A program made the translations under genes and the position numbers. Positions 346-19,631 of a stretch of 44,752 nt of DNA are shown here, in pieces (positions within the stretch are counted from its first letter, which is position 1; each line of letters starts with the position of its first letter). Source of the DNA: an uncultured Eubacterium sp. (lineage in GTDB: Bacteria; Bacillota; Clostridia; Oscillospirales; Acutalibacteraceae); NCBI RefSeq assembly GCF_945980375.1, contig NZ_CAMFQO010000012.1:1-44752 (forward strand), written 5' to 3'. Below the pieces are notes generated by a model. That model did not search any database. It saw only the letters and a list, made by a program, of their open reading frames with translations, and was not told the DNA's origin.

Positions 346-546
346 ATGGGACAACAGTTTATGCGAGTAGAAGAAGTCGCTGAGATTCTCGATGTTTCAA
401 CCTCGTATGCCTACAAAGTCATACGAGAGCTGAACGAGGAACTGAAGCGTAAAGGCTTTATTACCATATCAGGAAGAGTCAACAGAGAGTATTTTAATGA
501 AAGGCTGTACCAAGCCAGAAAGGAGAACAAAAATGCCTGTTTATAA
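346..546 (+). CDS. xis: Excisionase (Xis), small helix-turn-helix protein
   Basis: This 66-residue protein has a MerR/excisionase-type winged helix. The core 'VEEVAEILDVSTSYAYKVI' places a recognition helix near residues 12-28, followed by a short wing with 'GRVNREYF'. It is the expected directionality factor: it bends DNA at the element ends so the integrase favours excision. A strong AAAGGAGG site precedes the ATG. The 3' end overlaps the integrase start by 14 bases, indicating coupled translation. The island C protein at 17929 is a clear homologue with the same gene order. Confidence 0.85.
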   Translation: MGQQFMRVEEVAEILDVSTSYAYKVIRELNEELKRKGFITISGRVNREYFNERLYQARKENKNACL

Positions 547-1621
547 AAATGAAGATAACGGCACTTGGTATGTTTTAACACGATATGTAGATTGGAAAGG
601 CGAGCGCAAACAGAAATGTAAGCGAGGTTTTGAAACCAAACGAGAGGCTCAGGAGTGGGAGCGAGTATTTAAGCAGCAAAGTGCTGCCGATATGGATATG
701 AACTTTTCCGCCTTTGTTGAGCTTTATATAAAGGACATAAAACCTCGCTTAAAAGAAAACACTTGGCTGACCAAAAAGCATATCATTGAAACCAAGATTT
801 TACCCTATTTTGAAAAGAAAAATGTCAGTGAGATCACCACAAAGGATGTAATCGCTTGGCAGAATGAATTGCTCGCTTTTCGTGATGAAAAGAAGAAGCC
901 GTATTCACAGACCTATCTCAAAACCGTCCACAATCAGCTTAGTGCTATATTTAACCACGCTGTAAGGCATTATGACCTTCGTTCCAATCCCGCCGCAAAA
1001 GCCGGTAATATGGGCACAGAGGAACGCAAGGAAATGAAGTTTTGGACGAAAGAAGAGTACAAGAAGTTTGCCGATGAAATGATGGACAAGCCCGTATCCT
1101 ATTACGCGTTTGAAATGCTTTACTGGTGTGGCATTCGTGAGGGCGAGTTACTCGCTCTGACTGCGGGGGACTTCGACTTTGAAAAAGGTACTGTTACGAT
1201 CAGCAAATCCTATCAGCGTTTGCACGGCGAAGATGTCATTACCACACCGAAAACAAGGAAAAGCAACCGCACGATAAAAATGCCGCAGTTTCTCTGTGAG
1301 GAAATGCAGGATTATATCGGTATGCTATACGGATACAAAAAGAAAGATCGTATATTCCCCATTTCAAAGAATTATCTGCACCGAGAAATGGATCGTGGCT
1401 CAAGCGCCGCAGGGGTGAAGCGTATCCGCATTCACGACTTGCGCCATAGCCATATTTCCCTGCTCATAGATATGGGCTTTTCTGCGGTGGCAATTGCCGA
1501 CCGTGTTGGTCACGAAAGCATTGAGATCACTTACCGCTATGCACACCTATTCCCGTCAAAGCAGACGGAAATGGCAAAGAAACTTGAATATGAAAGGATG
1601 GATATTGAAAATGTCCGCTAA
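533..1621 (+). CDS. int: Tyrosine recombinase / integrase (Tn916-like)
   Basis: This 362-residue site-specific recombinase integrates and excises the island. The N-terminus ('GTWYVLTRYVDWKGERKQKCKRGF') fits an AP2-like arm-binding domain, followed by a SAM-like core-binding domain (about 65-160) and a catalytic domain. Catalytic signatures seen are 'CGIREGEL' (Arg), 'HDLRHSH' (His-x-x-Arg) and the C-terminal 'GHESIEITYRYAHL' with the nucleophilic Tyr. I chose the ATG at 533, not an upstream start, because GAAAGGAG sits 7 bases ahead of it. The adjacent guaA-type cores suggest its target is the guaA 3' end. Confidence 0.9.
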   Translation: MPVYKNEDNGTWYVLTRYVDWKGERKQKCKRGFETKREAQEWERVFKQQSAADMDMNFSAFVELYIKDIKPRLKENTWLTKKHIIETKILPYFEKKNVSEITTKDVIAWQNELLAFRDEKKKPYSQTYLKTVHNQLSAIFNHAVRHYDLRSNPAAKAGNMGTEERKEMKFWTKEEYKKFADEMMDKPVSYYAFEMLYWCGIREGELLALTAGDFDFEKGTVTISKSYQRLHGEDVITTPKTRKSNRTIKMPQFLCEEMQDYIGMLYGYKKKDRIFPISKNYLHREMDRGSSAAGVKRIRIHDLRHSHISLLIDMGFSAVAIADRVGHESIEITYRYAHLFPSKQTEMAKKLEYERMDIENVR

Positions 1622-3106: not shown

Positions 3107-3334
3107 CGGCAGGTATGCCAATACGAAGTTTAGGCGGGGTGCAGAGTGCCCTTTTCAAAGGGCGGTTCTGCTGGGGAGTTGTCCGCAGACAACGGGGCAA
3201 CGCCCCGCAACCCCCCTCGGAGAGCGCAATAGCAGCTTTTGATGGCAGAAGGCTGTCAAAAGTGCTTTTGCGTTACTCTTGACAAGAGTAACAGAACCGA
3301 GAACGGTAAAATTTTGGAGATTGGAGGTAATAAA
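3107..3334. other. Structured non-coding region, candidate oriT
   Basis: The stretch between the ATPase and the relaxase has no convincing gene. It contains several hairpins (CCCTTT/AAAGGG near 3150, GTTGTC-CGCA-GACAAC near 3177, GGGGC-AAC-GCCCC near 3195) and a perfect inverted repeat GTTACTCTTG-A-CAAGAGTAAC at 3272-3292. Island C has an equivalent GTTACTTTTT-CCC-AAAAAGTAAC repeat immediately upstream of its relaxase. MobV relaxases usually nick just upstream of their own gene, so 3272-3292 is the best oriT candidate. Confidence 0.45.
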
Positions 3335-4513
3335 ATGCAAAGAACGATAAGTGCAATGGTCGGTAAAGGCTCTGTCAATCATAACAGCCGCAAGTTCAAA
3401 GCGGAAAATGTTGACGATAACCGAACACATCTCAATATCGACTACTGCAATGAAAATATCAAAAAAGTCTATCATGAATTGTTTGACGAAGCACTTAAAA
3501 GGTACAACAATAAACAGACAAGAGCCGACCGTAAGATAGAAAACTATTATGAAAAAATCCGTAATTCAAAGCAAGAAAAACCGTTTCATGAACTCATTTT
3601 GCAGATAGGCGATAAGGAAAATATGAGTGCTGAAAGCGAAAACGGAGAGCTTGCAAGACAAATTTTAGATGAATATTACAGTGGATTTCAAGAGAGAAAC
3701 CCCAACTTAAAAGTGTTCTCTGCTCATCTTCATATGGACGAAGCAACACCGCATTTGCACATTGATTTTGTACCGTTTACCAGCGGAAGCAAGCGTGGAC
3801 TTGAAACAAGAGTATCTCTAAAACAGGCTCTTGCCGCCCAAGGTTTTAAGGGCGGAACCCGTGGAGATACCGAGTGGAACCAATGGGTAAGCGCAGAAAA
3901 ATCCGCACTTGCATTTGTTATGGAGCGTCACGGGATTGAATGGGAACACAAGGGTACTCACGAAAAACACTTGTCTGTTTTGGATTACAAAAAACAGGAG
4001 CGAGAAAAAGAAATTGCTGTATTGGACAACCAACTTGCCGAGAAAAAAGACGAGTTTCGTGTTATGGCTGACCGCATTGAGAACTTCGATAACGGAGAAA
4101 AATCCTTGCAGAAACTTGATGGAAGCATAATGAATGAGCCTGAATATCAGTTGCCTGAACCGCCTGCAATGATGTCGGCAAGAACTTATAAGGCAAAGTT
4201 TGTTGAACCGCTTATAGCCCGATTTAAGTCTTTAATAAGCACCTTATTTGCACGATATTTCAAGGCGTTGGACAGTTACCACAGATTGAACATCACAAAC
4301 GGAAACCTATATCGTGAAAATGAAAAGCTATCGAAAGTTAATGAAAAATTATCACGAGAGAATGAAAATCTGCGTGCGGAAAACAGGGATTACAAACTTC
4401 TCCGCAAAGTATTTGGTCATAAACAGATTGACAATTTGCTTGATAGTGCAAAGTTGGAAAAACAGTCTAAACAGCGTGAAAAACGCTTTAGAAATTATAA
4501 AGATGAAAGGTAG
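3335..4513 (+). CDS. MobV-family relaxase
   Basis: This 392-residue relaxase nicks oriT and pilots the single strand during mobilization. The N-terminal domain shows the MobV metal-binding signature 'HLHMDEATPHLHIDF' (His131, His133, His140, His142). The C-terminal 200 residues are charged and coiled-coil-like ('LYRENEKLSKVNEKLSREN'). I placed the start at ATG 3335, 7 bases after TTGGAGG; an upstream extension to 3239 is open but lacks a ribosome site. It is homologous to the island C relaxase. Confidence 0.9.
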   Translation: MQRTISAMVGKGSVNHNSRKFKAENVDDNRTHLNIDYCNENIKKVYHELFDEALKRYNNKQTRADRKIENYYEKIRNSKQEKPFHELILQIGDKENMSAESENGELARQILDEYYSGFQERNPNLKVFSAHLHMDEATPHLHIDFVPFTSGSKRGLETRVSLKQALAAQGFKGGTRGDTEWNQWVSAEKSALAFVMERHGIEWEHKGTHEKHLSVLDYKKQEREKEIAVLDNQLAEKKDEFRVMADRIENFDNGEKSLQKLDGSIMNEPEYQLPEPPAMMSARTYKAKFVEPLIARFKSLISTLFARYFKALDSYHRLNITNGNLYRENEKLSKVNEKLSRENENLRAENRDYKLLRKVFGHKQIDNLLDSAKLEKQSKQREKRFRNYKDER

Positions 4514-4522: not shown

Positions 4523-4900
4523 ATGAAACAGCATTTTACAGACGAAAAAACGGGAATCCGCTACACCTTGCAGGGAGATTATTATCTGCCCGACCTTGCG
4601 TTACCCGCTGAAGAACAACAGCCAATCGGTATATGGGGACAACGACATTTGCGACACATCAAGCAAAACCGAAGGGTGTTATACACCAATCTGCTGACCA
4701 GCGGCAAGTTAAACAGTTACCTTGCTGATATTGACAAACAGGCGGAAGAAATGTTTTCCCGGCTGGTGAAACAGATGGCAGAGCGTGAGGGTGTGACCGA
4801 ACAACTCAAAGTCGATAATCAAATGGCGTGGGTTGGTCGAATGAACAACATCCGCAGCAGAGCCACCGAGGTCGTGAATACAGATTTTATTTACACCTAA
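4523..4900 (+). CDS. TnpV-like transposon-encoded protein
   Basis: This 125-residue protein matches the small TnpV family found on Clostridia mobilizable transposons. Characteristic segments are 'GDYYLPDLALP', 'IGIWGQRHLRHIKQNRRVLY' and 'RMNNIRSRATEVVN'. The biochemical role is not established. It starts 9 bases after the relaxase stop with AAAGGTAGG upstream, so it is the last gene of the mobilization operon. A bidirectional terminator follows and separates it from the convergent cargo operon. Confidence 0.75.
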   Translation: MKQHFTDEKTGIRYTLQGDYYLPDLALPAEEQQPIGIWGQRHLRHIKQNRRVLYTNLLTSGKLNSYLADIDKQAEEMFSRLVKQMAEREGVTEQLKVDNQMAWVGRMNNIRSRATEVVNTDFIYT

Positions 4901-4904: not shown

Positions 4905-4944
4905 TAAAAAGCGGCAGGGATTTTGCTCTCTGCCGCCGTTTTTT
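4905..4944. terminator. Bidirectional terminator between mob module and cargo operon
   Basis: A 10-bp stem, 4911-4920 with 4927-4936 (one G-T pair), encloses the loop TTTTGC. It has a T-run at 4939-4944 for the plus strand and an A-run at 4906-4910, giving T's on the minus strand. It ends both the tnpV transcript and the radical-SAM operon. Confidence 0.85.
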
Positions 4945-6841
4945 ATTGGTTGTTTTCTGTATCATCACGGGTGATTTTATAGTACGCTAAGACATCGTTA
5001 ATCTCTTTGTCGTCGCATACAAAATCGCCATCCTTAAACTTGTTTAAGGCAATGATTGCTTTTGCTTTTTCTAGTTTATCTGGAGGTAATGCCTTGAATT
5101 TCTCCCACCACTCATTCGTTAAATCGCAATCGTGTTTTGTTACGGTAGTGTATCTATCAGCAAGACGATTACGAAGATCGGCATCGTAGATTCTACGATA
5201 TATGATGAAAGTTTCGGGCATCCATAGAATTTTCATAAACTCATCAATATCACATCCAAATGCTTCTTCAAAGAAATCAACGCCACGTCCAATTTTCCCT
5301 TTTGTAGAATTAAGCACGGCTTGGACTGCACGAATGAATTTTCTGTTCCAATGCTTACCGATGTAGTCACGGTTCATAAAGAACTCTTTATCATTTATCG
5401 GATGATACTTCATCGGAAATGAATATATGCTTGCGCCGAGTTCTTCGCATAAGTCAACATTCATTCTTAGACGATAATATAATTCTTCCGGTTTATCCTC
5501 AAAATTATAAAGAAGATAGTTTGAAAGGTTTTTTATTCCGCTTTTAACGGCTGTACGGATAGACTTTTCATATATGTCCCTAAGACTCCAGTGGTCAAAT
5601 GCTATGCGCAAAGGCTGAATGTTCACTTCTGCCAGTTTTTTCATATTTGCTTCAGTAATTAGACGTGAATCGATGCCTTGATTGAAGTCAACAATACGTT
5701 TTCTTTTTGAAGGTTTATGGGTTTTTTCATACAATGGGCGCACATATTCATCCAAACCTAATATATCTTCTTTGGATGCAGTATAATAGTAAAGGCAATG
5801 AGCTTCTTCCAATTTAAGATACAGTTCTGTTTTTTCTGTATCATCTTTCAGCTTTCCCATTATCTCTTTGTAAATAGAAATGGCTTTACGTATATATGCA
5901 CGATCATTGTAGGAATCCTTGAGATTATTGATTGTCACATCGTATTCATTGGGTGGTGTGTAAGTTGCACCTGTACCAAAGCCACATTCTTTAATTTCAT
6001 CAATGATTTGGTCGTAACACTTAGATGCCAAAACATTATTATCAAGTAAAAGCAAATCTTTTCTTGCGCCGAAACGTTTATCTGTAAATTCAATCCGATT
6101 TTTCAGATTGATATAGTCACAATACTGTGGTTCCAATTTCGGTACAGCACAGAACTTGCACTTGTTGACGCAGCCTCTTGTCATATATGCAAAATAAGCA
6201 TTGTTTGCAGGGTAAACGTAGTCTATCTCTTCAAGGATAGAGTAATCAAGAGGTAGTTCATCAATAATTAGCTTATTGCCAGGATCAATATCCCCCGGAT
6301 GATTCAATAAGCCAACAAAAGGTTCGATCCCTGTAGCGGCATACACCTCGTCTTTTAAGAGGGATGACATAATACCGCCTACCATAACATCTTCGGGTTT
6401 CTTACAAAGCTGCTTTGCGAAGTTAATAGTATCAATTGTAATGTCCCAATAAAATGTAAATAGCGTGGTGATGCCAACCTTATCAAATCTTGGCTTTGTG
6501 AAGTACTCTTTGTCTTTATATTTTTTACGATATTCTTTTACTGCATCTAAGACAATCTCATCTTCAAAGATGGGATCGGCCTCAAGAATTGCATATTTAC
6601 CGAGTTTTATAAATTCAAAAAGCGTAGGATAATAGTTCTTCCAAAATATTTCAGGAAGAATAATAGAAAGATGATTGATAAGATCATCGCAAATTAGCTC
6701 CACCGCTAAGGAACGCATATCGCCTTTATAAAAACGGACATCATCGCCAACCATACGATAATAGGTTGCCAATTTCATTAGTCCCATCGGTGGGTATTTA
6801 TTTTTGTAATTAGGCTCAATGAGCAAGACTTTTCTATTCAT
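4943..6841 (-). CDS. Radical SAM protein with cobalamin-binding-like N-terminus
   Basis: This 632-residue protein starts like B12-binding radical SAM enzymes: 'VLLIEPNYKNKYPPMGLMKLA' carries the Pro-Pro-x-Gly-Leu pattern near residues 17-21. The 4Fe-4S motif CxxxCxxC is 'CVNKCKFC' (Cys224, Cys228, Cys231) and is followed by barrel-like strands ('LLLLDNNVL', 'DFNQGIDSRL', 'YSFPMKYHP'). Such enzymes do methyl transfer or other radical chemistry; the substrate is unknown. It is the last gene of the six-gene operon, 6 bases after the GHKL ATPase stop. A radical SAM protein beside a HerA-NurA pair is unusual and suggests modification of nucleic acid, nucleotide or protein as part of defence. Confidence 0.8.
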   Translation of the reverse strand: MNRKVLLIEPNYKNKYPPMGLMKLATYYRMVGDDVRFYKGDMRSLAVELICDDLINHLSIILPEIFWKNYYPTLFEFIKLGKYAILEADPIFEDEIVLDAVKEYRKKYKDKEYFTKPRFDKVGITTLFTFYWDITIDTINFAKQLCKKPEDVMVGGIMSSLLKDEVYAATGIEPFVGLLNHPGDIDPGNKLIIDELPLDYSILEEIDYVYPANNAYFAYMTRGCVNKCKFCAVPKLEPQYCDYINLKNRIEFTDKRFGARKDLLLLDNNVLASKCYDQIIDEIKECGFGTGATYTPPNEYDVTINNLKDSYNDRAYIRKAISIYKEIMGKLKDDTEKTELYLKLEEAHCLYYYTASKEDILGLDEYVRPLYEKTHKPSKRKRIVDFNQGIDSRLITEANMKKLAEVNIQPLRIAFDHWSLRDIYEKSIRTAVKSGIKNLSNYLLYNFEDKPEELYYRLRMNVDLCEELGASIYSFPMKYHPINDKEFFMNRDYIGKHWNRKFIRAVQAVLNSTKGKIGRGVDFFEEAFGCDIDEFMKILWMPETFIIYRRIYDADLRNRLADRYTTVTKHDCDLTNEWWEKFKALPPDKLEKAKAIIALNKFKDGDFVCDDKEINDVLAYYKITRDDTENNQ

Positions 6842-6847
6842 AGGGTA

Positions 6848-8401
6848 TTATCTCATCTCTTCTTTAATTTTATCGATAATCTGCTCGGCAATATCTTTTG
6901 GAGCAATATCGGTGATAATGGACAAAATTTTACTTACTAATTTGCGTTCACTTCTTGATAGTTTAGACATAGAACTTGTAACAAACGACTTTTTCTTATC
7001 GTCATCATCAACTACCACAGTAGTCGTTTCGGCTTTTTTCTTCAGCTTATCAGCCTCATATTTCTGTCCAATGCTCTTTCTAACTTCCGATAAGGGAGAA
7101 TTGCTGTCGGTGGTATCAAGTTTGTCCAAACGTTTACGGGCATCTTCGGCACTTTTCTTAGCTTTATCAATATCAAACTGAAGTTTTTGGCGTTCTTCCT
7201 CGTTGACAAAGCCTTGTTCTTTTTCCTTCTTTTGATATTCGGCGACCTTGCTAAGATATTCTTCTTGTCGTTTATAGTCATTTTTAACACGATTAGCTTC
7301 ATAATAAAGCTTGTGTAGTACATCGTAGAAATACTCTCTCAACAGATCTTCAAACAAAACGCGGGTCTCGTTTTCGTTAAAATAATCACGCTGAGAGTTC
7401 GGGATAAGATTACGGTTTGCCGCAAACACTTCACCTACAAAATAATAATTGCCACGATTTTCTTTGAAAAGCGGTTGTAAGGTATCGTCGCCTCCGAGTT
7501 GAATATTTGCACTTCTTACACGCAACCCACGCATATGATTTATGCTTGGAATTTGTTTTTCAAAGCGTGACAAACCTACCCACATCCAAGCAATTAAATT
7601 GCCGGAAGCATCTCGAAAATCCTTGAATTCCAAACGGGAAATCTCATCGTAATTCTTCAAGGAAGCACCGCTTTGTTCTTTGAGCTTAGTCGTATATTCT
7701 TTAAAAATTTGCGAACCGTTCACTCTAACGCAATATTCATCGATGGTATAACCGATCGACTTAGCATAGCTATAAATCTGATTGCGAAGAATAAAGGTGT
7801 TTTTGTATGGAACCGGAACAACAAAACTAAGATATTCACGAACCTTTGTGTCATTCAATAAGTCTGTATTCTCTTTGTTAATATTAAACATCTCAACTTC
7901 AAAATAGTGTTCATCTTTTGTTTCGGGTTCGGTTGAATACGTTATGATAGCATCCCAAATTTCATCAAGAGTGTATTTCTTGTTTTCAACAAGCATTGTT
8001 CTCATCTTCTGTGCATCACAAGTCATAATGGACTTTGTACTTTCACCAAGGTAACTCGTTGTAAATTTTAATGTTTTACAATATGCCAACCCACAAAGAC
8101 GACCAATACCACGAAAGCCTTTATTTTTGCCGATTTCCTTATTGCTATTAGCAATGTCTCCAACATCTTCGATGAAATCGTCCGCTTTGACACCGGTAGC
8201 ATTATCTTTAATACTTATGTATCGTTTCTTGCTATCCGTGTATATATCAACATATCCCTCATCAGCAGACAAGATACCCTCTCTTATTGCAAGGTCGATT
8301 TGGTCGCAAGCATTTTGTATATATTCTCTGTAGATAACCTTGGAGTCAGAGTACATACCCGTCGTGAGGTTATCAAGTATGTTTTTACCTACTGTCGCCA
8401 T
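6848..8401 (-). CDS. GHKL (Hsp90/MORC-like) ATPase
   Basis: This 517-residue protein has an N-terminal Bergerat-fold ATPase. The N-box is 'REYIQNACDQID' (Glu26, Asn30), the G1 box 'KDNATGV' (Asp66, Gly70) and the lid/G2 box 'KGFRGIGRLCG' (around 94-104). The middle domain resembles the S5-like transducer of Hsp90/MutL/MORC proteins. Residues about 365-440 form a charged coiled coil, and a short C-terminal helical domain follows. Such ATPases dimerise upon ATP binding and act as clamps or switches. GTAAGGAGAT precedes the ATG, and the gene starts 10 bases after the HerA gene stop. Confidence 0.85.
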   Translation of the reverse strand: MATVGKNILDNLTTGMYSDSKVIYREYIQNACDQIDLAIREGILSADEGYVDIYTDSKKRYISIKDNATGVKADDFIEDVGDIANSNKEIGKNKGFRGIGRLCGLAYCKTLKFTTSYLGESTKSIMTCDAQKMRTMLVENKKYTLDEIWDAIITYSTEPETKDEHYFEVEMFNINKENTDLLNDTKVREYLSFVVPVPYKNTFILRNQIYSYAKSIGYTIDEYCVRVNGSQIFKEYTTKLKEQSGASLKNYDEISRLEFKDFRDASGNLIAWMWVGLSRFEKQIPSINHMRGLRVRSANIQLGGDDTLQPLFKENRGNYYFVGEVFAANRNLIPNSQRDYFNENETRVLFEDLLREYFYDVLHKLYYEANRVKNDYKRQEEYLSKVAEYQKKEKEQGFVNEEERQKLQFDIDKAKKSAEDARKRLDKLDTTDSNSPLSEVRKSIGQKYEADKLKKKAETTTVVVDDDDKKKSFVTSSMSKLSRSERKLVSKILSIITDIAPKDIAEQIIDKIKEEMR

Positions 8402-8411
8402 AACTATCTCC

Positions 8412-10121
8412 TTACTTAAATTGCTTATAAATCGGTTTCGGGAACTTGATATTAAGCAATGAACGGAAAATCGGATTTTGAATAATGTATTCGCCCTGTT
8501 TCAGGCGAGTCATCATAGTCTTATAAACGGATGGAATACTCTTATAATCGCTCTTGGTGACTTCAATTGAGTTTGTACGACCGTAAGCGTGGGTAGAACA
8601 GTTACCTGTAACTCTATCGTGAATAGCGCTTCTGAACTGTTCTGCGGCAAAGAGCACTACACCAAGAGAACGTCCACGTTCTGCAACATCAAGTACTTGA
8701 CGAAGAATAGGAGAGTTCTTAGGTGTTTCCTTAGAAGCATACTTGTTCAACTCGTCAATAAAAATTACAACTCTTGAAGGCGGATTTACGCCTTCTTCGC
8801 CGGCATACTGACCCAACTGTAAATCATAGATTGTACGGATTGCATCGCCGAATACATATGCCTGCTTATCTTCGGAGAGCTTAGCAATATCAATAACATG
8901 CACTTCGTTTTTCTTAATGTATTTGAGGGCATCCCCAATACGGGTTTCACCTTCATCTTCACGAATATCCCTTGCGAAAATCTTATTATCAGTAATGCTC
9001 TTATTAATGATGCGATAGAATTTTCTCCAGCTCGCCACAGGGATTTCTTTGTCTTTTCCAGAAGTTTCGGTAGAACACTTTTCTTTTACTGCTTCAAGGA
9101 ATTCCTGCCAATCACTGACTTGATTAAATTTACCTTGTCCCGACATAATATAGCTGATGATAGATTCCATTGTTTGAGTGGAGTCATCAATATTGGCAAA
9201 CATCAAATCGAGATTCTCTTTGTCATACTTATAAATGTATTTGTACTTTTTTGCTTTCTTCTTTTTGATATTATCCTCAACTTCTTCTGGCGTCATATAT
9301 GTGTTCCAATGACGGGTTTTTGGGATAGAGTAAGGATAATAGTACTGAACATTCTTGAAAGGTTCAGCAGCCAATCCCAACTTTTCGTATTTAGCAAAAG
9401 TATCCTTTCGAGCCTGCTCAGGATTACGCTCATCAGAGAAGTCGTTTAACTGATCAATAGCAAGCAAGTCCTTACCTTTTACATTAAATAGTACAAATGC
9501 AACACTGTCTTCGTCCTCGTTTTGGGGATCCTTCTTCATATAGCTGTCTTGTATAGCCTTCAAAAGAAACATCGCATAAGAAGTCTTGGAAGCAAGACCG
9601 GAGATACCCGAAATGTTCAAATGAGCACCTTCGGGGCCAATAATGAATTTTGAGTTGAGATTTACAGGGAGTGTAACTTTCTCACACCCTTTTGTACCCT
9701 CATACATTTCAAGATAACCACACACAAGCGGATTACGGATATCATTAAGTCCAAGAGCGTAGTTAATTTCTTCGGCAGTTGCCAACATTACTTTTGCGTT
9801 GCTTTGAAGAGGAATATAAATATTTTCGGTATTGCAAACAACCTTGGCGGTAACATAATTCATCCCTACACGCAGGGTGTTTTCTTCAGCGTTAACATCA
9901 CCAAAATCACTTGAAATAAAGTTGGTAAGAAAACTAGCGGCATCGGTGATATGTGCAATATCTTCGATAACGCCATAGGAAAATGAATTATTAACGTGCT
10001 GTACCTTTACGATATCAAACGGATTTAAGATAAGTTTGGGATCCGTCCAAAATGTAAAATTATCAATTGTTGTTGGATTCTTTTCTGTCGCCAACACACG
10101 ACCTATAATCGTATTAGACAT
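8412..10121 (-). CDS. HerA-like DNA-translocating ATPase
   Basis: This 569-residue protein has an N-terminal HAS-type barrel (about 1-100, 'IIGRVLATEKNPT') and an FtsK/HerA ATPase core. The Walker A loop is a variant, 'SGISGLASKTS' (residues 171-181), with Lys179. Walker B is 'VVIFIDELNKYA' (Asp456-Glu457), followed by 'ERGRSLGVVLFAAEQ', where an arginine finger is expected. HerA forms hexamers that pump DNA and works with NurA nucleases; the NurA-like gene lies just upstream, 15 bases away. AGGAGG precedes the ATG. A central helical insertion (about 230-400) may be a partner interface. Confidence 0.85.
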   Translation of the reverse strand: MSNTIIGRVLATEKNPTTIDNFTFWTDPKLILNPFDIVKVQHVNNSFSYGVIEDIAHITDAASFLTNFISSDFGDVNAEENTLRVGMNYVTAKVVCNTENIYIPLQSNAKVMLATAEEINYALGLNDIRNPLVCGYLEMYEGTKGCEKVTLPVNLNSKFIIGPEGAHLNISGISGLASKTSYAMFLLKAIQDSYMKKDPQNEDEDSVAFVLFNVKGKDLLAIDQLNDFSDERNPEQARKDTFAKYEKLGLAAEPFKNVQYYYPYSIPKTRHWNTYMTPEEVEDNIKKKKAKKYKYIYKYDKENLDLMFANIDDSTQTMESIISYIMSGQGKFNQVSDWQEFLEAVKEKCSTETSGKDKEIPVASWRKFYRIINKSITDNKIFARDIREDEGETRIGDALKYIKKNEVHVIDIAKLSEDKQAYVFGDAIRTIYDLQLGQYAGEEGVNPPSRVVIFIDELNKYASKETPKNSPILRQVLDVAERGRSLGVVLFAAEQFRSAIHDRVTGNCSTHAYGRTNSIEVTKSDYKSIPSVYKTMMTRLKQGEYIIQNPIFRSLLNIKFPKPIYKQFK

Positions 10122-10136
10122 TTTTATTTATCCTCC

Positions 10137-11306
10137 TCAAAACAGATGTAAGAACATTTCTGTGCTGATGTATTTGCTTTTTACGTAAGACTCGGTCAAA
10201 AATACGGGATATAAATGATTCGCCCAACGACGATCAGTACCATAGCAAGTAGGGTTGCGTTCGTTGATAATGTTGGCGGAAATCAGATCGATAACATCAC
10301 TATCGATACCGTTTTCTATTTCTTCATCCATCATTATTTTTTCGACTTTAACTACCCCGTCAAACGGTGTTTGTGTTCTGCGTTTATCCCGTAAACGGAT
10401 ATACCAAACGCCAAATTGAACATCACCTAAAAACTCACGATTTTCGTATCTCGCTACGGGAGTTCTGTGGAACACGGGCAAGTCAGCTATATAGTTGGAA
10501 TTCGGTTTGCCCGTATGATCAAGGCAACTTTCGGGATTAAATGACTTTGAAACACCGATCACCCAACTGTAATTATGCTTGATTTTTTGGAGCGTTCTCA
10601 AATCTTCTCGACCGGACTTCATAACCTTATATTCAAGAGAACCATCTTTGAGCAAATAGGCATCTTGCCCCAAACGCTTGTCCTTTACCAATTCAGCAAC
10701 CATTCGTTTTTCGGCTTCAATCATATAGTCTTGTATAACGCCGACCGCCAAATTATCAAGTTTAGTATCGGGATAGCCTGCCTTTGATGTCGAATACGGA
10801 ATGATGGCGGAAAAATGCAATCCCAAACGCTTTAATTCTTCGCTTTCGTTTAACTTTTTGACTTTGGCTGCAAAATAAGCAGCATCATCCCAACCGTCAG
10901 CGTTTGCCTTATCAGGAAGAGCTAAAACCAATTCACGATAGAAGCGTTCCTTTGACATACGCTTATTTTCACGCTTGCAACAGCCAATACCGATTTGTCC
11001 TGCTACAACGGGGAAAACCTGCTTGTTATATGCAATGTCATCCACCTTAAAAACGTGGCGTGAACCATCAAGAAAATATTTAAGTAAGGGCTTTTCGCCC
11101 ACGGATTGCAATTGATCTGCTAAAGGCTTAAGGTCGATTGGCTTCTTGGGAAAACCTGTTTCACCGGAATCTTTCCATTTCATTACTTTGTTAGGATCAT
11201 CGTCATAATCAATGGAAGGTAAGCCAATTGAGTCGTAACTATACTTGTAGGTATGGTAGCTTTTTCCTTTGGTTTCCTTTTCGATAATCTCCATTATTTT
11301 TGGCAT
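10137..11306 (-). CDS. NurA-like nuclease
   Basis: This 389-residue protein shows NurA-domain hallmarks. The first acidic motif is 'YFLDGSRHVF' (Asp80), the second 'YLLKDGSLEY' (Asp221), followed by 'WVIGVSKSF' (Lys254). The C-terminal 'RWANHLYPVFLTESYVKSKY' resembles the closing NurA segment. NurA is a Mn-dependent nuclease that is channelled by HerA to resect DNA. The pairing with the HerA gene immediately downstream supports the call. The start is 3 bases after the AbiEii stop and uses AAGGGAG inside that gene's end, so the two are translationally linked. Homology is remote, so alternatives within the RNase H-like nucleases remain possible. Confidence 0.7.
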   Translation of the reverse strand: MPKIMEIIEKETKGKSYHTYKYSYDSIGLPSIDYDDDPNKVMKWKDSGETGFPKKPIDLKPLADQLQSVGEKPLLKYFLDGSRHVFKVDDIAYNKQVFPVVAGQIGIGCCKRENKRMSKERFYRELVLALPDKANADGWDDAAYFAAKVKKLNESEELKRLGLHFSAIIPYSTSKAGYPDTKLDNLAVGVIQDYMIEAEKRMVAELVKDKRLGQDAYLLKDGSLEYKVMKSGREDLRTLQKIKHNYSWVIGVSKSFNPESCLDHTGKPNSNYIADLPVFHRTPVARYENREFLGDVQFGVWYIRLRDKRRTQTPFDGVVKVEKIMMDEEIENGIDSDVIDLISANIINERNPTCYGTDRRWANHLYPVFLTESYVKSKYISTEMFLHLF

Positions 11307-11309: not shown

Positions 11310-12215
11310 TTACACTCCCTTCTTCCATTGATTTTCAGCAGCGATCCATTTATCTGTATACTCAATTGTATCCACCGACGCCGTGAATGGCTTTATAAGA
11401 AACGCTTTTATTGTTTTTAGAACGATACTGTAATCATCAGTTTTAGTATCAATCTTACGGGTGAAGGCTTTCCACTTTTTCTGCATTGCTCCATCTCTGT
11501 CAAAGTCCATTACCTGCTCAAACTGTTCAACGGTAAAGCTATGTCCACGGTTTTCAAAGGTCTTTTTCAGTGCTTCCGTCAGCGTTGCTCCGTCAAAATC
11601 AAATTTATTGGCAAGATAGTAAATATCGTAATAATCCTTCATTCGGCTTGAAAATTCCATTAGACTGAGAATAGCGTCTATCTTCTCGGCAATGGTTGTT
11701 TCAAGTGAGTATGTATTTACTGTCGGGGCGTCAAAGTCGGAAAGCTGTGTCGGGATTTTTCGTTTTTCCTGTTTCGGTACGATGACATCCCCCACACCGA
11801 AATCAATACTGAACGGTGTTTTGGTGTTTTTAATGCGGGCGACCACCGATGCGCCAATACCCGCATACTTTTTGGCAACAGCAATAGGGACAACATCTTT
11901 AATCTCAAAAGTGATAAAGTCGTGTCCGGTAGGTGTTGCAATAATTTCCTCCAACACAGCTTTTAACTGCTCCGGCGTATTTGGTATTTGGCGGAGCAAA
12001 AAGTCCACATCAACTGTTACTCGGCTGTCAAAGTCGGTAAGGGAATAGATAAACAATCCGCCTTTCAGCACAAGATTTTCTGCATATTTGGATTTTTCCA
12101 AACGGCGCAGAAATTCCTCTTGGCAAAAGAGCTGCAGACAAAGCTGATAACTTCTTCCGCTTTCGGCAGCCTTATTTTTCAGTCGTGCAAGCACAGATGC
12201 AGCAATATCAGCCAT
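11310..12215 (-). CDS. abiEii: AbiEii/AbiGii-type nucleotidyltransferase toxin
   Basis: This 301-residue protein carries the minimal nucleotidyltransferase motifs of AbiEii toxins: 'LVLKGGLFI' (Gly52-Gly53), 'TVDVDFLL' (Asp69, Asp71), 'FSIDFG' (Asp138) and 'ETTIAEKIDAI' plus 'RMKDYYDIY' (Lys178, Asp194, Asp197). Related toxins modify tRNA or use NTPs to stop growth in a type IV toxin-antitoxin and abortive infection system. It overlaps the antitoxin gene by 8 bases, which is standard for this pair. The unusual part is its 3' side: the NurA-like gene begins 3 bases later. Confidence 0.88.
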   Translation of the reverse strand: MADIAASVLARLKNKAAESGRSYQLCLQLFCQEEFLRRLEKSKYAENLVLKGGLFIYSLTDFDSRVTVDVDFLLRQIPNTPEQLKAVLEEIIATPTGHDFITFEIKDVVPIAVAKKYAGIGASVVARIKNTKTPFSIDFGVGDVIVPKQEKRKIPTQLSDFDAPTVNTYSLETTIAEKIDAILSLMEFSSRMKDYYDIYYLANKFDFDGATLTEALKKTFENRGHSFTVEQFEQVMDFDRDGAMQKKWKAFTRKIDTKTDDYSIVLKTIKAFLIKPFTASVDTIEYTDKWIAAENQWKKGV

Positions 12216-12813
12216 TAAGCAGTACCTCCATCAATTCGGTGACCTTTTTGTATACACGAAGTTTTTTTGCGTATGCAGAAAGGTTGTTCAGATTTTTCTT
12301 TGTATCGTTAGCGTAAGCATTAAGCGCTTTATTAAAAATCTCGTTGTCGAGTTTTGAACGGTATTTGAAACAATCGCAGATGGTGCGTTCACGGTCATAT
12401 ACAGGCAGGGTAACGCCATCGAAATCATCTGTAGTTTTTCCCAAATCGTACAGTTCCGCCTGAACATAGTAAGGTTGCAGAGCGAGAACATCCACATTCA
12501 GTTTTGTTCTCGACATAGAACGAGGGATTGCGATTGACCACTTGCGTGGAGCAAAGTCACTGTATCCGTAATGAAAAAGTGCTGATTCAACGCAGACAAT
12601 TCCTTTCGGTACGAGGGTGGCAAGAAGCTGTTCCTCGGAAACCGCACTTTTTTCAGCAAGTTCATAATAACCGTGACGCACACGATTAAGAAAGCCGGCG
12701 TTGCACAGATTTACAACATCGGCCGCTCTGATTCCGGCAGCGACAAAGTCAGCAGATTTTGCAATGCCGCCTTTATTGATAATGACTTCTTTTACTTGCT
12801 CTCGGATGTCCAC
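12208..12813 (-). CDS. abiEi: AbiEi-type antitoxin / autorepressor
   Basis: This 201-residue protein has an N-terminal winged helix ('GGIAKSADFVAAGIRAADVV', 'GFLNRVRHGYYEL') and the C-terminal AbiEi antitoxin domain with 'YDRERTICDCFKYR'. AbiEi proteins neutralise AbiEii without binding it and repress their own promoter. I prefer the GTG at 12813, preceded by AAGGTGAG, over the TTG at 12831. It is the first gene of the six-gene operon, so its autoregulation would also set expression of the downstream nuclease-ATPase genes. Confidence 0.87.
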   Translation of the reverse strand: MDIREQVKEVIINKGGIAKSADFVAAGIRAADVVNLCNAGFLNRVRHGYYELAEKSAVSEEQLLATLVPKGIVCVESALFHYGYSDFAPRKWSIAIPRSMSRTKLNVDVLALQPYYVQAELYDLGKTTDDFDGVTLPVYDRERTICDCFKYRSKLDNEIFNKALNAYANDTKKNLNNLSAYAKKLRVYKKVTELMEVLLNG

Positions 12814-12840
12814 TCTCTCACCTTCTTTCAACTATAAAAT

Positions 12841-12871
12841 TCAAGCACACAAAAATAGTATATGTGCTCGA
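12841..12871. promoter_or_regulatory. Inverted repeat, candidate AbiEi operator
   Basis: TCAAGCACA (12841-12849) and TGTGCTCGA (12863-12871) match as an inverted repeat with one mismatch and a 13-base spacer. It lies between the -10 box and the antitoxin start, where autoregulating AbiEi proteins are known to bind inverted repeats. Confidence 0.6.
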
Positions 12872-12875
12872 ATTT

Positions 12876-12904
12876 ATTATAGCACGAAAAGAAAAAGTTT
12901 GCAA
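12876..12904 (-). promoter_or_regulatory. Promoter of the abiE-nurA-herA-GHKL-rSAM operon
   Basis: On the minus strand TTGCAA (12899-12904) and TATAAT (12876-12881) are 17 bases apart. It is the only good promoter upstream of the six tightly packed genes; the internal gaps (3, 15, 10 and 6 bases) leave no room for others. Confidence 0.75.
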
Positions 12905-13040
12905 TAATAATTACGCACAAAATATTGAAATCTGTACGTAAAATTTTAATTTGCTATTGCAATAAGAAAGATTATACGCTATAATATTAGCATACCACTT
13001 CCATATTATCCACGGTGATATTATTCTTGTTATCAACCTC

Positions 13041-13058
13041 GATAACAAAATGATAACA
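13041..13058 (+). other. Arm-type repeat pair, right end of island A
   Basis: GATAACA occurs at 13041 and 13052, an 11-bp period, with an inverted GTTATC at 13029. The pair sits about 119 bases before the core at 13159. Four cores in this window show the same geometry, so I read these as integrase arm-binding sites. Confidence 0.6.
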
Positions 13059-13158
13059 AGGGCATTTTTGCAAAGGATAATACAGATACATCGTAAAATC
13101 AAAACAGAGAGACTAACGAAAAACAAAATTACATAAACAGAATTGTTTAGTCCTCGTC

Positions 13159-13170
13159 GAGTGGGAATAA
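13159..13170 (+). other. attachment core, guaA-type (site 1)
   Basis: The 12-mer GAGTGGGAATAA encodes Glu-Trp-Glu-stop, the usual end of GuaA and a recognised island attachment core. It forms the junction of islands A and B. Confidence 0.7.
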
Positions 13171-13344
13171 AATGTGCTAAATATTAGTGCGATAGCATAG
13201 TAATTAGTGTTAACAATCAGTTACGCTATCTTTAAAAGACGGTCAACTGCACAGACCGTTTATCAAAAGTGCTAATCTCTAAACTGCTTATCGAGTTAAA
13301 AAGGCAGTGTGTTATTCTTGCACCAAAAAGAACTCTGTTATTTA

Positions 13345-13617
13345 GGCAATGAAGAGCAATCCTAACCGTGGTTCAAATTGGCTGATTTGCCCTTACTCTG
13401 TGTTAAAAATACTCAGAATACAAAAAGTATTCCTGCGTTTTTGTGCCTTGATTAAGAATAAATCAGCACAATTTGAACTCGCAGACCAAAAATGCTTGAA
13501 GTAAAGATGAATTTTGGATTTTGAGATGGAAGCCTTGCTGACGCAAGGCGACAGCGAAAATTTCAAAAGTCGCTTTAATTCTGCATTTTTGGCAGGTTCG
13601 GATTACTCTTTATTGCC
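13345..13617. mobile_element. 273-bp MITE with TA target duplication
   Basis: The ends form terminal inverted repeats of about 23 bp beginning GGCAAT(G/A)AAGAG(C/T)AATCC, flanked by TA on both sides. The homologous segment at 16579-16595 is uninterrupted (TTATATAGCAGGG), giving an empty-site control. There is no ORF. The inside is packed with further inverted repeats (GTTCAAATTG/CAATTTGAAC, CCAAAAATGC/GCATTTTTGG, GCCTTGC/GCAAGGC). The TA duplication suggests mobilization by an IS630/Tc1-mariner-type transposase not present here. Confidence 0.75.
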
Positions 13618-13641
13618 TAGCAGGGCTAAAAGATAAAGCAA

Positions 13642-13670
13642 AGAGCCAAGGATTGACCTTGGCTCTTTTT
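13642..13670 (+). terminator. Rho-independent terminator in copy 1 of the repeat
   Basis: AGAGCCAAGG-ATTGA-CCTTGGCTCT is followed by TTTT. It is the end of the repeated segment, now separated from its upstream part by the MITE. Confidence 0.85.
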
Positions 13671-13940
13671 CATTGTCCAGCAATGGTTGATAACCCCCGG
13701 TTCTACCGGGGGAATAGAAAGCTTTAGTAAAAATAAGAACGGTGAGCTTAATGCAAGCCGAGGGTATTGGCGAAAAAATAACCTCCAAGTATAACAACCT
13801 CACGAAAAAATAACTAAATCAAAGATTTAGATTATTTCGGAGAACGTTGCCTCACTCTGTTTCGCATTTTCACGCTCACAGAGATGAGTAAATAGAAACG
13901 GTTTGGCAGCCGCGTTACTAAAATACAGGAGGTTAAAAGC

Positions 13941-14423
13941 ATGATAAAAAAGAACTCAAACAACGAAATAAAAACATTGTCGCACTCGACATACAGGTGT
14001 CAGTATCACATAGTGTTCGCACCAAAATATCGCAGAAAAGAGATATACGGAAAATTAAGAAAAGATATCGGAGAAATAATCCGTAAATTGTGCGAACAGA
14101 AAGGCGTAGAAATCATAGAGGCAGAAGCCTATAAAGACCATATACACCTTTTGGTATCAATACCACCGTACATAAGTGTAACGCAATTCATGGGATATCT
14201 CAAGGGAAAAAGCACATTGATGATTTTCGACCGACACGCAAATTTAAAGTATAAGTACGGCAACCGACATTTTTGGTGTAGGGGATACTATGTTGATACA
14301 GTCGGTCGAAACAAGAAAGTGATAGAAAAGTACATACAAAATCAACTTGAGGAAGATTTTGCAAATGACCAAATTTCACTTAAAGAGTATGTAGACCCGT
14401 TCACGGGTAACAAGAATAAGTAA
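13941..14423 (+). CDS. tnpA: IS200-family Y1 transposase TnpA
   Basis: This 160-residue HUH transposase has the His-hydrophobic-His motif 'DHIHLLVSIPP' (His67, His69) and the catalytic Tyr131 in 'VIEKYIQNQ'. It excises and inserts a single-stranded circle using the hairpins at the element ends. The length is normal and the frame is intact, so it may be active. CAGGAGG lies 8 bases upstream of the ATG. No tnpB accompanies it. Confidence 0.93.
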   Translation: MIKKNSNNEIKTLSHSTYRCQYHIVFAPKYRRKEIYGKLRKDIGEIIRKLCEQKGVEIIEAEAYKDHIHLLVSIPPYISVTQFMGYLKGKSTLMIFDRHANLKYKYGNRHFWCRGYYVDTVGRNKKVIEKYIQNQLEEDFANDQISLKEYVDPFTGNKNK

Positions 14424-14434
14424 GCAAAAATAAA

Positions 14435-14536
14435 CAGCCCCACGAGAGGGGCTGCTTGAAACAGTAATGCGATGCCAAACTTCAGTGCCGACTTTCAGTC
14501 GGAAAGCCAGTAGGCGGCCCTTATAGGGCCTGTGCA
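14435..14536 (+). other. Hairpin cluster downstream of tnpA
   Basis: Three compact hairpins occur between the tnpA stop and the right-end hairpin: CAGCCCC-ACGAGA-GGGGCTG (14435-14454), CCGAC-TTTCA-GTCGG (14488-14502) and GGCCC-TTATA-GGGCC (14516-14530). None has a T-run. They may be part of an IS-borne small RNA or of the transposase recognition structure. Confidence 0.5.
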
Positions 14537-14563
14537 AACCACCAGTTCAACTGGTGGTTATGA

Positions 14564-15658
14564 TTAAGCGATAATTGTATATTTGATTTTGTATAATCCG
14601 CCTCTGTTTGGTGCTATATAATTGTCATGTTGAAGCCTTCCAAATATAACACCTGGATGAACACCTATTTGTTTTGCAAAATTAACTATGGCAGGATCAG
14701 AAAGATTTCTATTGTTAATGAATGATTGGTACAAGTCCTCTGGTATTAGAGTTTCTTGTGCAAACTTATCTGCTTCTGCTTCAAGTTGTTCATTTGAGTA
14801 TGCTGTATTAATTTCTTGTCCGCTAATGAATATTTGTTTGTGCTTTTGCTGCAGAACATGTTTTATCTCATGGAACAATGAAAACCAAAAGGTATCGGCT
14901 GATTTTCTTCTATCATTCAATGCCAGTATTACCTTATCTTTGTTAATCCACTTTACAGCACCATTTACGCCCGAGTTCTTTAAATATGGTAATAATACAA
15001 AAGTTACTCCACATTCTGAAAAGATTTCTTTTAATCTTGGTAAGAATATTTGTGGAGATTGAAGCGTCATTGATCTTATTTCCGAGAGATAAGATTTGAG
15101 TTTTTTGGCATCAAAATCTGAAACTTGCATATTCCTACCAATATTAATAGCCGTTTGCAACCATGCCCTAGAATTAATGATGTTTTTATCGTTAAATGTT
15201 TGAGTGGCGGTTCTATAGTTTACAAGGAAATCTGGTGTTAAAAGGATATCCAAACTTGAAATTTGAAAAAACTGCCTCAAATTAGTAATCTTGTCTTCGA
15301 TTTTTCTTGCTTCTGAAACCAGACCTAAACTTACAAAATACTTATAGTCTATCATATATGCGATGTTTTTTTGTTGATCTAATTGCTTTGCTTCTTCAAT
15401 TTCAATTAGTTTTTTCTCATATGTTGTTTGAAGATTCAACCACAACTCAACACTGGTTCCAAGCATATTGGATAATTTATGTGCAATATCATTAGACAAA
15501 TTTATTTCACCATTCACTAATTTACTAATGGTCTTAGCGGTAGTTCCAAGTCTAATTGCAAATTCTTCTTGAGTAATTTCAAGTTCTTCAATTGTTTCTT
15601 GAATATAATAACCGGGATGAAAAGCCATTATCTCTTTATATTCAACATTGTTTGTCAT
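14564..15658 (-). CDS. HigA-like antitoxin fused to an ImmA/IrrE metallopeptidase domain
   Basis: This 364-residue protein has an N-terminal XRE helix-turn-helix of HigA type ('ITQEEFAIRLGTTAKTISKLVNG', residues 28-50) and a C-terminal ImmA/IrrE-like zinc peptidase domain with 'FHEIKHVL' (His263, Glu264, His267) and the downstream acidic 'EAEADKFA'. It would repress the operon and neutralise the HigB-like toxin; the peptidase domain may sense damage or clear the antitoxin. It overlaps higB by 17 bases. Its last codons abut the IS200 right end, so the original C-terminus may have been altered by the insertion. Confidence 0.85.
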   Translation of the reverse strand: MTNNVEYKEIMAFHPGYYIQETIEELEITQEEFAIRLGTTAKTISKLVNGEINLSNDIAHKLSNMLGTSVELWLNLQTTYEKKLIEIEEAKQLDQQKNIAYMIDYKYFVSLGLVSEARKIEDKITNLRQFFQISSLDILLTPDFLVNYRTATQTFNDKNIINSRAWLQTAINIGRNMQVSDFDAKKLKSYLSEIRSMTLQSPQIFLPRLKEIFSECGVTFVLLPYLKNSGVNGAVKWINKDKVILALNDRRKSADTFWFSLFHEIKHVLQQKHKQIFISGQEINTAYSNEQLEAEADKFAQETLIPEDLYQSFINNRNLSDPAIVNFAKQIGVHPGVIFGRLQHDNYIAPNRGGLYKIKYTIIA

Positions 15659-15998
15659 AATGATTACTAACCTCCTTGATTAAGATAATTTTTATGTTTT
15701 TTATATTGGGCGTTACATCTCCTTTACTTATAAGATTATTTTTAGAATCTTGTGGGATAATATGAATTCTATATCCAGTTCTGCCTACATATATTGCCCA
15801 CTGGTCTTTGTATTCATTGTCTAAGTCGTGAAAATGGAATGACGGATAGTTTTTTATATCTAAAAGAGAATCTGCATTCTCGATAAAGTTTATTATTGAT
15901 GATAGTTTTTTATATACTTTTGAATCCATTATTTTCAAAGCATATTTTCTATCTTTACACAGATTTTTCACATGTGTACTGTCATAATTAATGGTCAA
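15642..15998 (-). CDS. HigB-like RelE-superfamily toxin
   Basis: This 118-residue protein fits the HigB/RelE fold of ribosome-dependent mRNA interferases, with 'FHFHDLDNEYKDQWAIYVG' and 'GYRIHIIP' as the typical core strands. The start is a TTG at 15998 preceded by GGGAGGAGG; no internal ATG would keep the N-terminal strand. It comes first in the operon, as in higBA. The promoter just upstream is covered by a perfect inverted repeat. Confidence 0.75.
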   Translation of the reverse strand: MTINYDSTHVKNLCKDRKYALKIMDSKVYKKLSSIINFIENADSLLDIKNYPSFHFHDLDNEYKDQWAIYVGRTGYRIHIIPQDSKNNLISKGDVTPNIKNIKIILIKEVSNHYDKQC

Positions 15999-19544: not shown

Positions 19545-19561
19545 ACAAGGCAATTTGGTAT

Positions 19562-19597
19562 TCCTGCCGAAATGATTTGACCGAAATATCGGCAGGA
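19562..19597. repeat. Hairpin after the MobC-like gene of island C
   Basis: TCCTGCCGA (19562-19570) pairs perfectly with TCGGCAGGA (19589-19597). No T-run follows. It corresponds in position, not sequence, to the hairpin at 1951-1996. Confidence 0.55.
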
Positions 19598-19631
19598 GAA
19601 TAGATTGTTACAGTAAGTAAATCGCATTAGC

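Follow-up and report, generated by a model that had tools for sequence, protein, structure and literature searches.

The window examined here is a stretch of 44,752 nucleotides (positions 1 to 44,752 of contig NZ_CAMFQO010000012.1) from an uncultured Eubacterium sp. It carries four closely packed genes for a NurA-like nuclease, a HerA-like DNA translocase, a GHKL ATPase and a radical SAM (S-adenosylmethionine) protein. These genes may constitute a self-contained and horizontally mobile defence system comparable to restriction-modification, in which NurA-HerA degrades DNA and the radical SAM-GHKL pair provides the self mark. The probability of this reading is estimated at roughly 0.5. Its predicted nuclease-motor half is well supported by homology. 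The radical SAM and GHKL genes, as judged from their neighbourhoods, are a separate portable two-gene core that is joined to at least three other helicase/nuclease frameworks besides NurA-HerA, and gene context suggests that this core marks DNA. The unit as a whole appears to be a restriction-like nuclease system whose core module had gone unrecognised.

An earlier note on this DNA had taken the four genes for one unit, and the comparison of neighbourhoods shows that they are inherited together. A genome collection of 84,980 species was scanned with the radical SAM alignment, which gave 229 relatives. The best 80 of these, one record of a phage collection (L010) and two viral contigs make up a set of 83 loci. 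The order NurA-HerA-GHKL-SAM on one strand is retained in 65 of them. The remaining 18 comprise 11 loci too near a contig end, three with a split gene (L037, L038, L084) and four genuine departures: L036 is devoid of NurA-HerA, and L078, L083 and L089 consist of GHKL-SAM alone. Pairwise protein distances among the four families correlate with r 0.82–0.91 in the 65 loci (shared ancestry is not removed from these values), compared to a maximum of 0.27 in 1000 permutations per pair. According to record titles and tree labels the hosts belong to Bacillota, Bacteroidota, Planctomycetota, Lentisphaerota, Deferribacterota and Melainabacteria; many are metagenome bins, and individual labels may be wrong. 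The full unit is also present in the divergent viral contig L131. Carriers of the HerA family are rare and number 2 among 150 genomes of the same bacterial family, 12 among 398 in a phylum sample and 8 among 321 in a class sample (own genome included each time).

There is no fixed fifth gene. Among the 25 commonest of 153 Pfam families in the flanks, none is present in more than 3 of the 145 flanking genes (these represent 55 of the 70 loci; the candidate genes numbered 183, of which 168 were non-redundant). Resolvases, AAA_21, AAA_15, HTH and helicase domains lead, AbiEii is found in two, and DNA-methyltransferase families are absent from these 25. A first scan of viral sequences with a single SAM protein as query returned no relative. 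A later scan gave 427, of which 80 were kept. Fifty-nine of the 80 were left out as other radical SAM proteins (≤220 bits, no adjacent GHKL match), one of them with a 27-bit GHKL match farther off. Several viral loci represent one contig twice, and the neighbour counts of the core given below use one locus per viral contig; L235, L236 and L238 are apparently the contigs of L014, L048 and L074 again.

Residue conservation across the four families far exceeds chance. The counts refer to full-length aligned relatives; short, low-scoring and broken copies were excluded. In NurA, the residues D80, D221 and K254 named in the earlier note, as well as E199 and H364, are conserved in 67 of 67 sequences, and the Walker A and B residues of HerA (K179, T180, S181, D456 and E457) in 69 of 69. 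The P-loop of HerA, NISGISGLASKTSY, nearly equals that of Deinococcus HerA, NISGISGVATKTSY, and is not a textbook Walker A motif. HerA matches D. radiodurans HerA with E-values of 5.3e-39 (phmmer) and 3.7e-126 (profile). It is the sole protein of the unit with PADLOC matches (mad8, 5e-10; HerA models, 7e-4 and 0.01). In Pfam, only the GHKL protein scores above the cut-off; HerA and the radical SAM protein are sub-threshold. NurA has no match at E ≤ 1 in Pfam, PADLOC, NCBIfam or PHROG. Its profile finds D. radiodurans NurA among the PDB sequences (7f6d_H, E = 0.0032). The AlphaFold2 model of NurA (predicted local distance difference test, pLDDT, 86.3) has D. radiodurans NurA as its best Foldseek match (7f6d_G, 6e-12, template modelling (TM) scores 0.52/0.59), followed by Sulfolobus NurA (2ygk, 2.1e-8, TM 0.38/0.45), and no further structure at E ≤ 0.001. 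Both NurA and HerA are Deinococcus-type proteins. Two studies describe the homologues as a 6:2 HerA-NurA complex, an ATP-driven nuclease in which HerA translocates DNA into the NurA dimer, where it is degraded; mutation of the motif-I aspartate or of a conserved lysine abolishes nuclease activity (PMC9960219, PMC12977600). The proposal that HerA-NurA is the nuclease motor therefore stands on fold, homology and conserved catalytic residues.

The Bergerat-fold ATP site and the CxxxCxxC motif read from the sequence hold equally well. Residues E26, N30, D66, G70, G95 and G98 of the GHKL protein are conserved in 75 of 75 relatives, and C224, C228 and C231 of the radical SAM protein in 84 of 84. The GHKL protein matches Pfam HATPase_c_3 (4.3e-10). 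Its match to the NCBIfam model of HtpG (3.4e-9) reaches 35.7 bits compared to a cut-off of 371, and its profile aligns to HtpG in the PDB (4.9e-13) at about residues 8–132 only. A full-length HtpG/Hsp90 architecture was rejected, because the ATP-binding part alone aligns and the score is far under the cut-off. The radical SAM protein matches a PHROG radical SAM family (2e-37) and, sub-threshold, Pfam Radical_SAM (0.056); its profile has no match among PDB sequences. All 11 Foldseek matches of its AlphaFold2 model (pLDDT 92.7) at E ≤ 0.001 are radical SAM enzymes, headed by MgmA (7e-8) and TsrM (3e-7), then MiaB and AprD4; a model of MtaB is also among them. The cluster motif and the barrel fold place the protein in the radical SAM superfamily. 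Some of these structural neighbours transfer a methyl or methylthio group, others remove a hydroxyl group. As regards a cobalamin-binding N-terminal domain like that of B12-dependent radical SAM methylases, MgmA and TsrM head the fold matches, and the B12-binding protein AerR reaches an E-value of 0.07 only. Methylthiotransferases such as MiaB and RimO have three extra N-terminal cysteines. This identity was rejected, since the N-terminal cysteines are not conserved; in every column before C224, cysteine is present in at most 60 of 84 sequences.

The radical SAM and GHKL genes keep together beyond the four-gene unit. In the 398 genomes of the phylum sample SAM is found in seven and GHKL in six, all within the seven. 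SAM is present in 12 plasmid records, all of which also carry GHKL; a 13th record has a partial GHKL match. The two genes are neighbours on the same strand in 78 of the 80 genome contigs and in 12 of the 13 genome stretches (three of these 13 are contigs already among the 80); the same holds for 15 of the 21 viral contigs and for all 5 plasmid loci. Apart from NurA-HerA, the pair is accompanied by an SNF2 helicase and ParB-like genes; there are 11 such viral or plasmid records, with the helicase set on either strand. A DndB/DpdB-like gene is situated directly upstream of SAM in five of the 11 and in two more plasmids; DpdB matches of such adjoining genes are 2.4e-16 and 2.1e-7. One viral contig (L098/L124) combines DrmA (2.8e-161), DrmB (1e-52), UvrD and a NERD-helicase with SAM and two GHKL genes, and there the set adjoins an ABC-three-component system. 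In genome G470, PbeA (3e-243) and PbeC (6e-226) accompany SAM-GHKL (PbeA/PbeC locus L225), and PbeA/PbeC homologues are present beside SAM in G167 and G322, the latter with SAM and no GHKL. In a further context, seen in L036 and (by eye) in L116, GHKL is accompanied by a gene with weak similarity to cyclases (Guanylate_cyc 9e-4, below cut-off; PycC 0.0097); this gene is added to the NurA-HerA type in L011, L021 and L025.

Two associations of the core recur with additional GHKL genes. The cyclase-like gene and then an extra GHKL gene lie directly downstream of the radical SAM gene in L011, L021 and L025 (about 11900-14170) and in L036 (11895-14167). A PIN_8-domain gene (Pfam 2.6e-19 in L193) and a second GHKL gene are found beside DndB-like/SAM/GHKL on rhizobial and sphingomonad plasmids (Table 1).

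Trees were calculated from hand-chosen rows, 39 for HerA and 44 for SAM. On the SAM tree the context label changes 10 times, close to the possible minimum of 7 and well below the mean of 21.4 after shuffling. One clade with 100/99 support mixes NurA-HerA, Pbe, SNF2/ParB and DISARM contexts. Therefore, the core has most likely changed frameworks several times.

The partner that replaces the core in other NurA-HerA loci is a methyltransferase. In the phylum sample, four of the 12 genomes with HerA carry SAM-GHKL, and the other eight combine NurA-HerA with a gene of 1083-1111 amino acids (fragments in G444). For two of these eight genes a scan identified a type IIG-like methyltransferase (PADLOC E = 0, Pfam N6_Mtase), as Pfam did for the homologue in viral locus L095; the others are so called by homology. 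A second DNA methyltransferase is present in six of the eight genomes (409-431 amino acids; 311 in the partial G444). All seven further HerA genomes of the class sample have SAM-GHKL. Altogether, 11 of 19 HerA genomes hold a NurA-HerA locus with SAM-GHKL and eight one with the type IIG-like methyltransferase; no locus has both and none has neither. With a set of seven seeds, no DNA methyltransferase was found in 92 loci having HerA, SAM and GHKL (some places counted twice). Each type falls in one clade of the HerA tree, so the swap is a single exchange on this tree, and repeated independent swaps on NurA-HerA were rejected.

The methyltransferase-type loci (L095 5349-12997, L216-L222, L227) look like restriction-modification units of their own, in which NurA and HerA are combined with a type IIG-like methyltransferase and often with another methyltransferase as well. 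PADLOC names the methyltransferase genes only and has no match for the NurA of L218. A different radical SAM protein is encoded near two of these loci, with a DUF3800 gene between (L216 1927-3537, L217 14005-15525). That of L216 matches Radical_SAM (1.1e-15) and, below the cut-off, a B12-binding family (1.6e-6); its equivalent in L217 has a 24-bit match only.

DNA-modifying enzymes are also the usual company of the other frameworks. CxC/Pbe systems are described as carrying cytosine methylases or adjoining phosphorothioation genes (PMC10853773). Of 329 genomes, six have PbeC, three of them with SAM. By eye, Dnd- and Ssp-like genes are present in L249 and L250; the PAPS-reductase domain of L250 is the one part of these with a database match. 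The neighbours of PbeC in L249 are Dnd-type by eye (the DndC-like protein has no PDB match), and L250 has a PAPS-reductase-like gene (4e-6), a cysteine-desulfurase-like gene (by eye) and a 1251-residue protein with no PDB match. For the Dpd system, PMC11888242 gives dpdA-C as the synthesis operon, DpdB as a DndB-domain protein and DpdE as an SNF2 helicase. Since its frameworks are otherwise associated with DNA-modifying enzymes, SAM-GHKL may fill the modification slot.

From these data the following mechanism may be suggested. The HerA ring would pump double-stranded DNA into the NurA dimer, which would degrade it, as has been shown for the homologues. GHKL and the radical SAM protein would together represent the modification side: ATP-driven closure of a GHKL clamp may keep the pair on DNA or load it there, while a chemical mark may be placed on host DNA by the radical SAM enzyme, e.g. 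by methylation at carbon. This mark would keep NurA-HerA off, and incoming DNA devoid of it would be destroyed. The same core might serve the Pbe, DISARM DrmAB and DndB/DpdB-ParB-SNF2 frameworks. The AbiE pair that heads the likely operon may act against cells in which the system is lost or fails. The earlier note had assigned the GHKL protein to a sensor or clamp and had left the radical SAM enzyme between self-marking and signalling. Self-marking is preferred, because the core joins at least three other helicase/nuclease frameworks; the separate roles give way to one shared portable core. A broader proposal is tentative and falls somewhat short of an even chance: radical SAM-GHKL would be an undescribed portable DNA-modification module, its epigenetic self mark standing beside methylation, phosphorothioation and 7-deazaguanine, and it would have been plugged several times into at least four restriction frameworks (NurA-HerA, Pbe/CxC, DISARM DrmAB and DndB/DpdB-ParB-SNF2).

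Several observations weigh against DNA marking. The solved structures nearest to the radical SAM protein belong to enzymes with protein, small-molecule or tRNA substrates; DNA is not among these substrates. The ratio of 11 to 8 does not represent 19 independent cases, because the HerA tree gives one event. Most sequences behind the HerA query profile came from SAM-GHKL loci, and the first sampling leaned to SAM. The methyltransferase screen was narrow, given its seven seeds. G322 holds both types on separate contigs (HerA and methyltransferase on C9, SAM and Pbe on C6). No modification gene was recognised in L248, one of the six Pbe loci. SAM is present without adjacent GHKL in 9 of 119 loci; among these, L086 is cut by a contig end and L036 has the cyclase-like gene in between. 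In L078, L083 and L089, GHKL-SAM lies beside housekeeping genes with neither a nuclease nor a helicase, an arrangement for which a strict restriction-modification reading has no need. Finally, the exchange of partners is explained almost as well by a sensor.

Such a sensor or switch for infection is unlikely. GHKL proteins such as Hsp90 and MutL are established conformational switches; here the GHKL protein would reshape on a phage product, and the radical SAM enzyme would make a small molecule or modify a partner protein, which activates the neighbouring nuclease. Exchangeable effectors on a sensor core would equally account for the partner swaps, and the cyclase-like gene with its extra GHKL (L011, L021, L025, L036) as well as the PIN-domain genes with further GHKL genes on plasmids would fit this arrangement. 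However, the frameworks joined by the core otherwise carry DNA-modifying enzymes, and the alternative partner in NurA-HerA loci is a DNA methyltransferase, which a sensor is not expected to replace. The identity of these alternative partners tips the balance towards marking. They are writers, and so are the apparent phosphorothioation genes adjoining two of the six Pbe loci. This also makes a type IV-like system very improbable, in which SAM-GHKL reads or removes a phage DNA modification (e.g. by oxidative/radical demodification) and NurA-HerA attacks the modified invader DNA. Its gene contexts would be identical to those expected for marking, and spore photoproduct lyase offers a precedent for a radical SAM enzyme acting directly on DNA (PMC8307549).

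Archaeal HerA-NurA resects DNA ends, and the unit could accordingly be a repair cassette carried by mobile elements, in which SAM-GHKL would assist as a repair factor or chaperone. Distant plasmid relatives of HerA are followed by an SbcD-like gene in five of six records (one of the six is cut at the record end). This explanation is improbable in view of the patchy occurrence of HerA (2/150 and 12/398) and the methyltransferases of the sister HerA loci. Moreover, deletion of nurA-herA in D. radiodurans is reported to give about 10-fold more resistance to ultraviolet light and mitomycin C, the authors leaving the role open (PMC9960219). The plasmids L004-L008, from actinobacteria, cyanobacteria and a chloroflexotan, show the distant HerA gene, then the SbcD-like gene and, in four of five, SbcC, i.e. 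the archaeal-type layout of Mre11-Rad50-HerA. Least probable is a radical SAM enzyme that modifies RNA or protein like MiaB, RimO or MgmA, so that the unit acts via translation or a protein target. The Foldseek matches do include MgmA, MiaB and, more weakly, RimO, but the N-terminal cysteines of the methylthiotransferases are not conserved and most partner modules are DNA machines.

If DNA marking by the core is true, it would distinguish self from foreign DNA in a novel manner, by a mark made with radical SAM chemistry. It would also explain how known restriction frameworks operate without their usual modification enzyme. The mark would be easily overlooked: its genes are labelled 'radical SAM protein' and 'ATP-binding protein', and the radical SAM protein of the window is under the Pfam cut-off. 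A modified nucleoside would be expected in the DNA of culturable strains such as Novosphingobium aromaticivorans (plasmid pNL1), Acetobacterium dehalogenans DSM 11527 and Frisingicoccus caecimuris DSM 28559. The unit may furthermore offer a role for bacterial NurA-HerA, a point left open by the authors of the Deinococcus study (PMC9960219). Even without marking, the unit of four genes, together with the portable pair at its core, represents a well-defined and widely spread candidate defence family that is unnamed by PADLOC.

In the window, the four open reading frames are found on the minus strand where the earlier note had located them, and the intergenic gaps of 15, 10 and 6 bases were reproduced (Table 1). 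Its view of the four genes as one unit stands as regards their being together; the extent probably needs correction. The likely operon is longer and includes AbiEi and AbiEii (11310-12831), which lie upstream on the same strand with 3 bases between AbiEii and nurA. A single six-gene transcript AbiEi-AbiEii-NurA-HerA-GHKL-SAM is possible, because a promoter-like site precedes AbiEi and a stem-loop with T runs on both strands follows the stop codon of the radical SAM gene. The promoter-like sites of the region (32 compared to 26.0 ± 4.9 in shuffles) show no excess and are weak evidence. The terminator scan gave 7 hits compared to 6.0 ± 2.4 in shuffles and scored the stem-loop as a plus-strand terminator; direct reading places a run of 5 T directly past the stem on the minus strand too. 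The same six-gene order is present in L015, L020 (AbiEii split), L025 and L237, and the HerA of L237 belongs to a different branch of the HerA tree.

Table 1. Positions of the four-gene unit, its surroundings in the window and a recurrent plasmid gene set.
Feature	Position	Strand	Remarks
NurA-like nuclease	10137..11306	-	389 aa; D80, E199, D221, K254, H364 conserved
HerA-like hexameric DNA translocase	8412..10121	-	569 aa; P-loop K179-T180-S181, Walker B D456-E457
GHKL ATPase (Bergerat-fold, Hsp90-type)	6848..8401	-	517 aa; E26, N30, D66, G70, G95, G98
Radical SAM protein	4943..6841	-	632 aa; C224-x3-C228-x2-C231
AbiEii nucleotidyltransferase toxin	11310..12215	-	301 aa; Pfam AbiEii 4.5e-48, PADLOC AbiEii 2.5e-92
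AbiEi antitoxin	12208..12831	-	207 aa; PADLOC AbiEi 7e-63; Pfam AbiEi_4 3.6e-4, below cut-off
Promoter-like site (extended -10), upstream of AbiEi	12876..12904	-	10/12 consensus matches
10-pair stem-loop, candidate operon terminator	4911..4936	.	Strand undefined; between convergent TnpV and radical SAM genes
Mob_Pre-type relaxase	3239-4513		Pfam
TnpV	4523-4900		Pfam
Integrase	497-1621		Read by eye
PIN_8 gene and second GHKL gene (plasmids)	L193 15303-18786; L194 6979-10487; L195 7215-10659; L192 4809-8131		

The relaxase, TnpV, integrase and AbiE genes around the unit agree with the mobile island beside toxin-antitoxin genes that had been proposed. An attachment-site repeat linking this island to the tRNA pair at 25397-25552 was rejected, as no word of at least 16 bases is shared elsewhere in the window. 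Two mobile elements apparently lie side by side, because a further integrase and a further mobilisation-type gene are found at 18133-20936 (by eye). The second element contains a DNA methyltransferase (21251-22525; PDB 2zie, 9.8e-56), 11 kb from the unit, and a convergent gene for a protein of 201 residues (22561-23166) that is a candidate restriction enzyme for it (by eye; no PDB match). Reading by eye assigns 13941-15998 to an IS200-like transposase and to a HigBA-like toxin-antitoxin pair that includes an ImmA-type peptidase domain.

Mobile islands, prophage-type contigs and AbiE provide the context of a candidate defence system. The earlier note did not recognise the combination as a named system. 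The unit indeed matches no PADLOC system, matches at the subunit level come from HerA alone, and no description of the four-gene combination was found in the literature among open-licence PubMed Central papers. The outcomes named beforehand as speaking against the note (lack of co-inheritance, housekeeping profile matches, a named defence system) did not turn up. Classical restriction-modification was rejected for want of a DNA methyltransferase in the unit (Pfam, PADLOC). MADS is comparable in that HerA of the window matches mad8 (5e-10) and methyltransferases of the sister loci match mad2 (7e-13 and 1e-8); it was rejected because the four unit proteins and AbiE have no mad1-mad7 match at E ≤ 1. 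Pbe (CxC ABC-ATPase plus DndE) and Dnd/Ssp share relatives of SAM-GHKL in the Pbe loci of G470 and G167 and of SAM alone in G322, but PbeA, PbeC/DndD and DndE are missing from the window unit (PADLOC). DISARM usually carries methyltransferases. The viral contig with DrmA, DrmB, SAM and two GHKL genes has no methyltransferase detectable with the seven seeds, and the window unit has no Drm gene (PADLOC).

The antiphage pairs HerA-DUF4297 and HerA-Sir2 likewise consist of a HerA ring with a partner enzyme. Their HerA proteins belong to other subfamilies (weak PDB profile matches), neither DUF4297 nor Sir2 is part of the window unit (Pfam, PADLOC), and the partner in the window is NurA. The temperate phage Marinitoga camini virus 1 (L003 6927-10753) has NurA-HerA with a convergent short radical SAM gene and no GHKL match. 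The NurA-HerA-methyltransferase loci contain the same NurA-HerA pair with HerA from a sister clade, and type IIG-like and N6/N4 DNA methyltransferases take the place of GHKL and radical SAM. D. radiodurans NurA-HerA (PDB entry 7f6d) resembles the pair of the window in a HerA that is homologous over most of its length with a near-identical P-loop, in the NurA fold with its conserved acidic and lysine residues, and in the adjacency of the two genes. The Deinococcus proteins have been studied as a stand-alone pair for end resection, whereas those of the window are encoded in an operon with GHKL and radical SAM.

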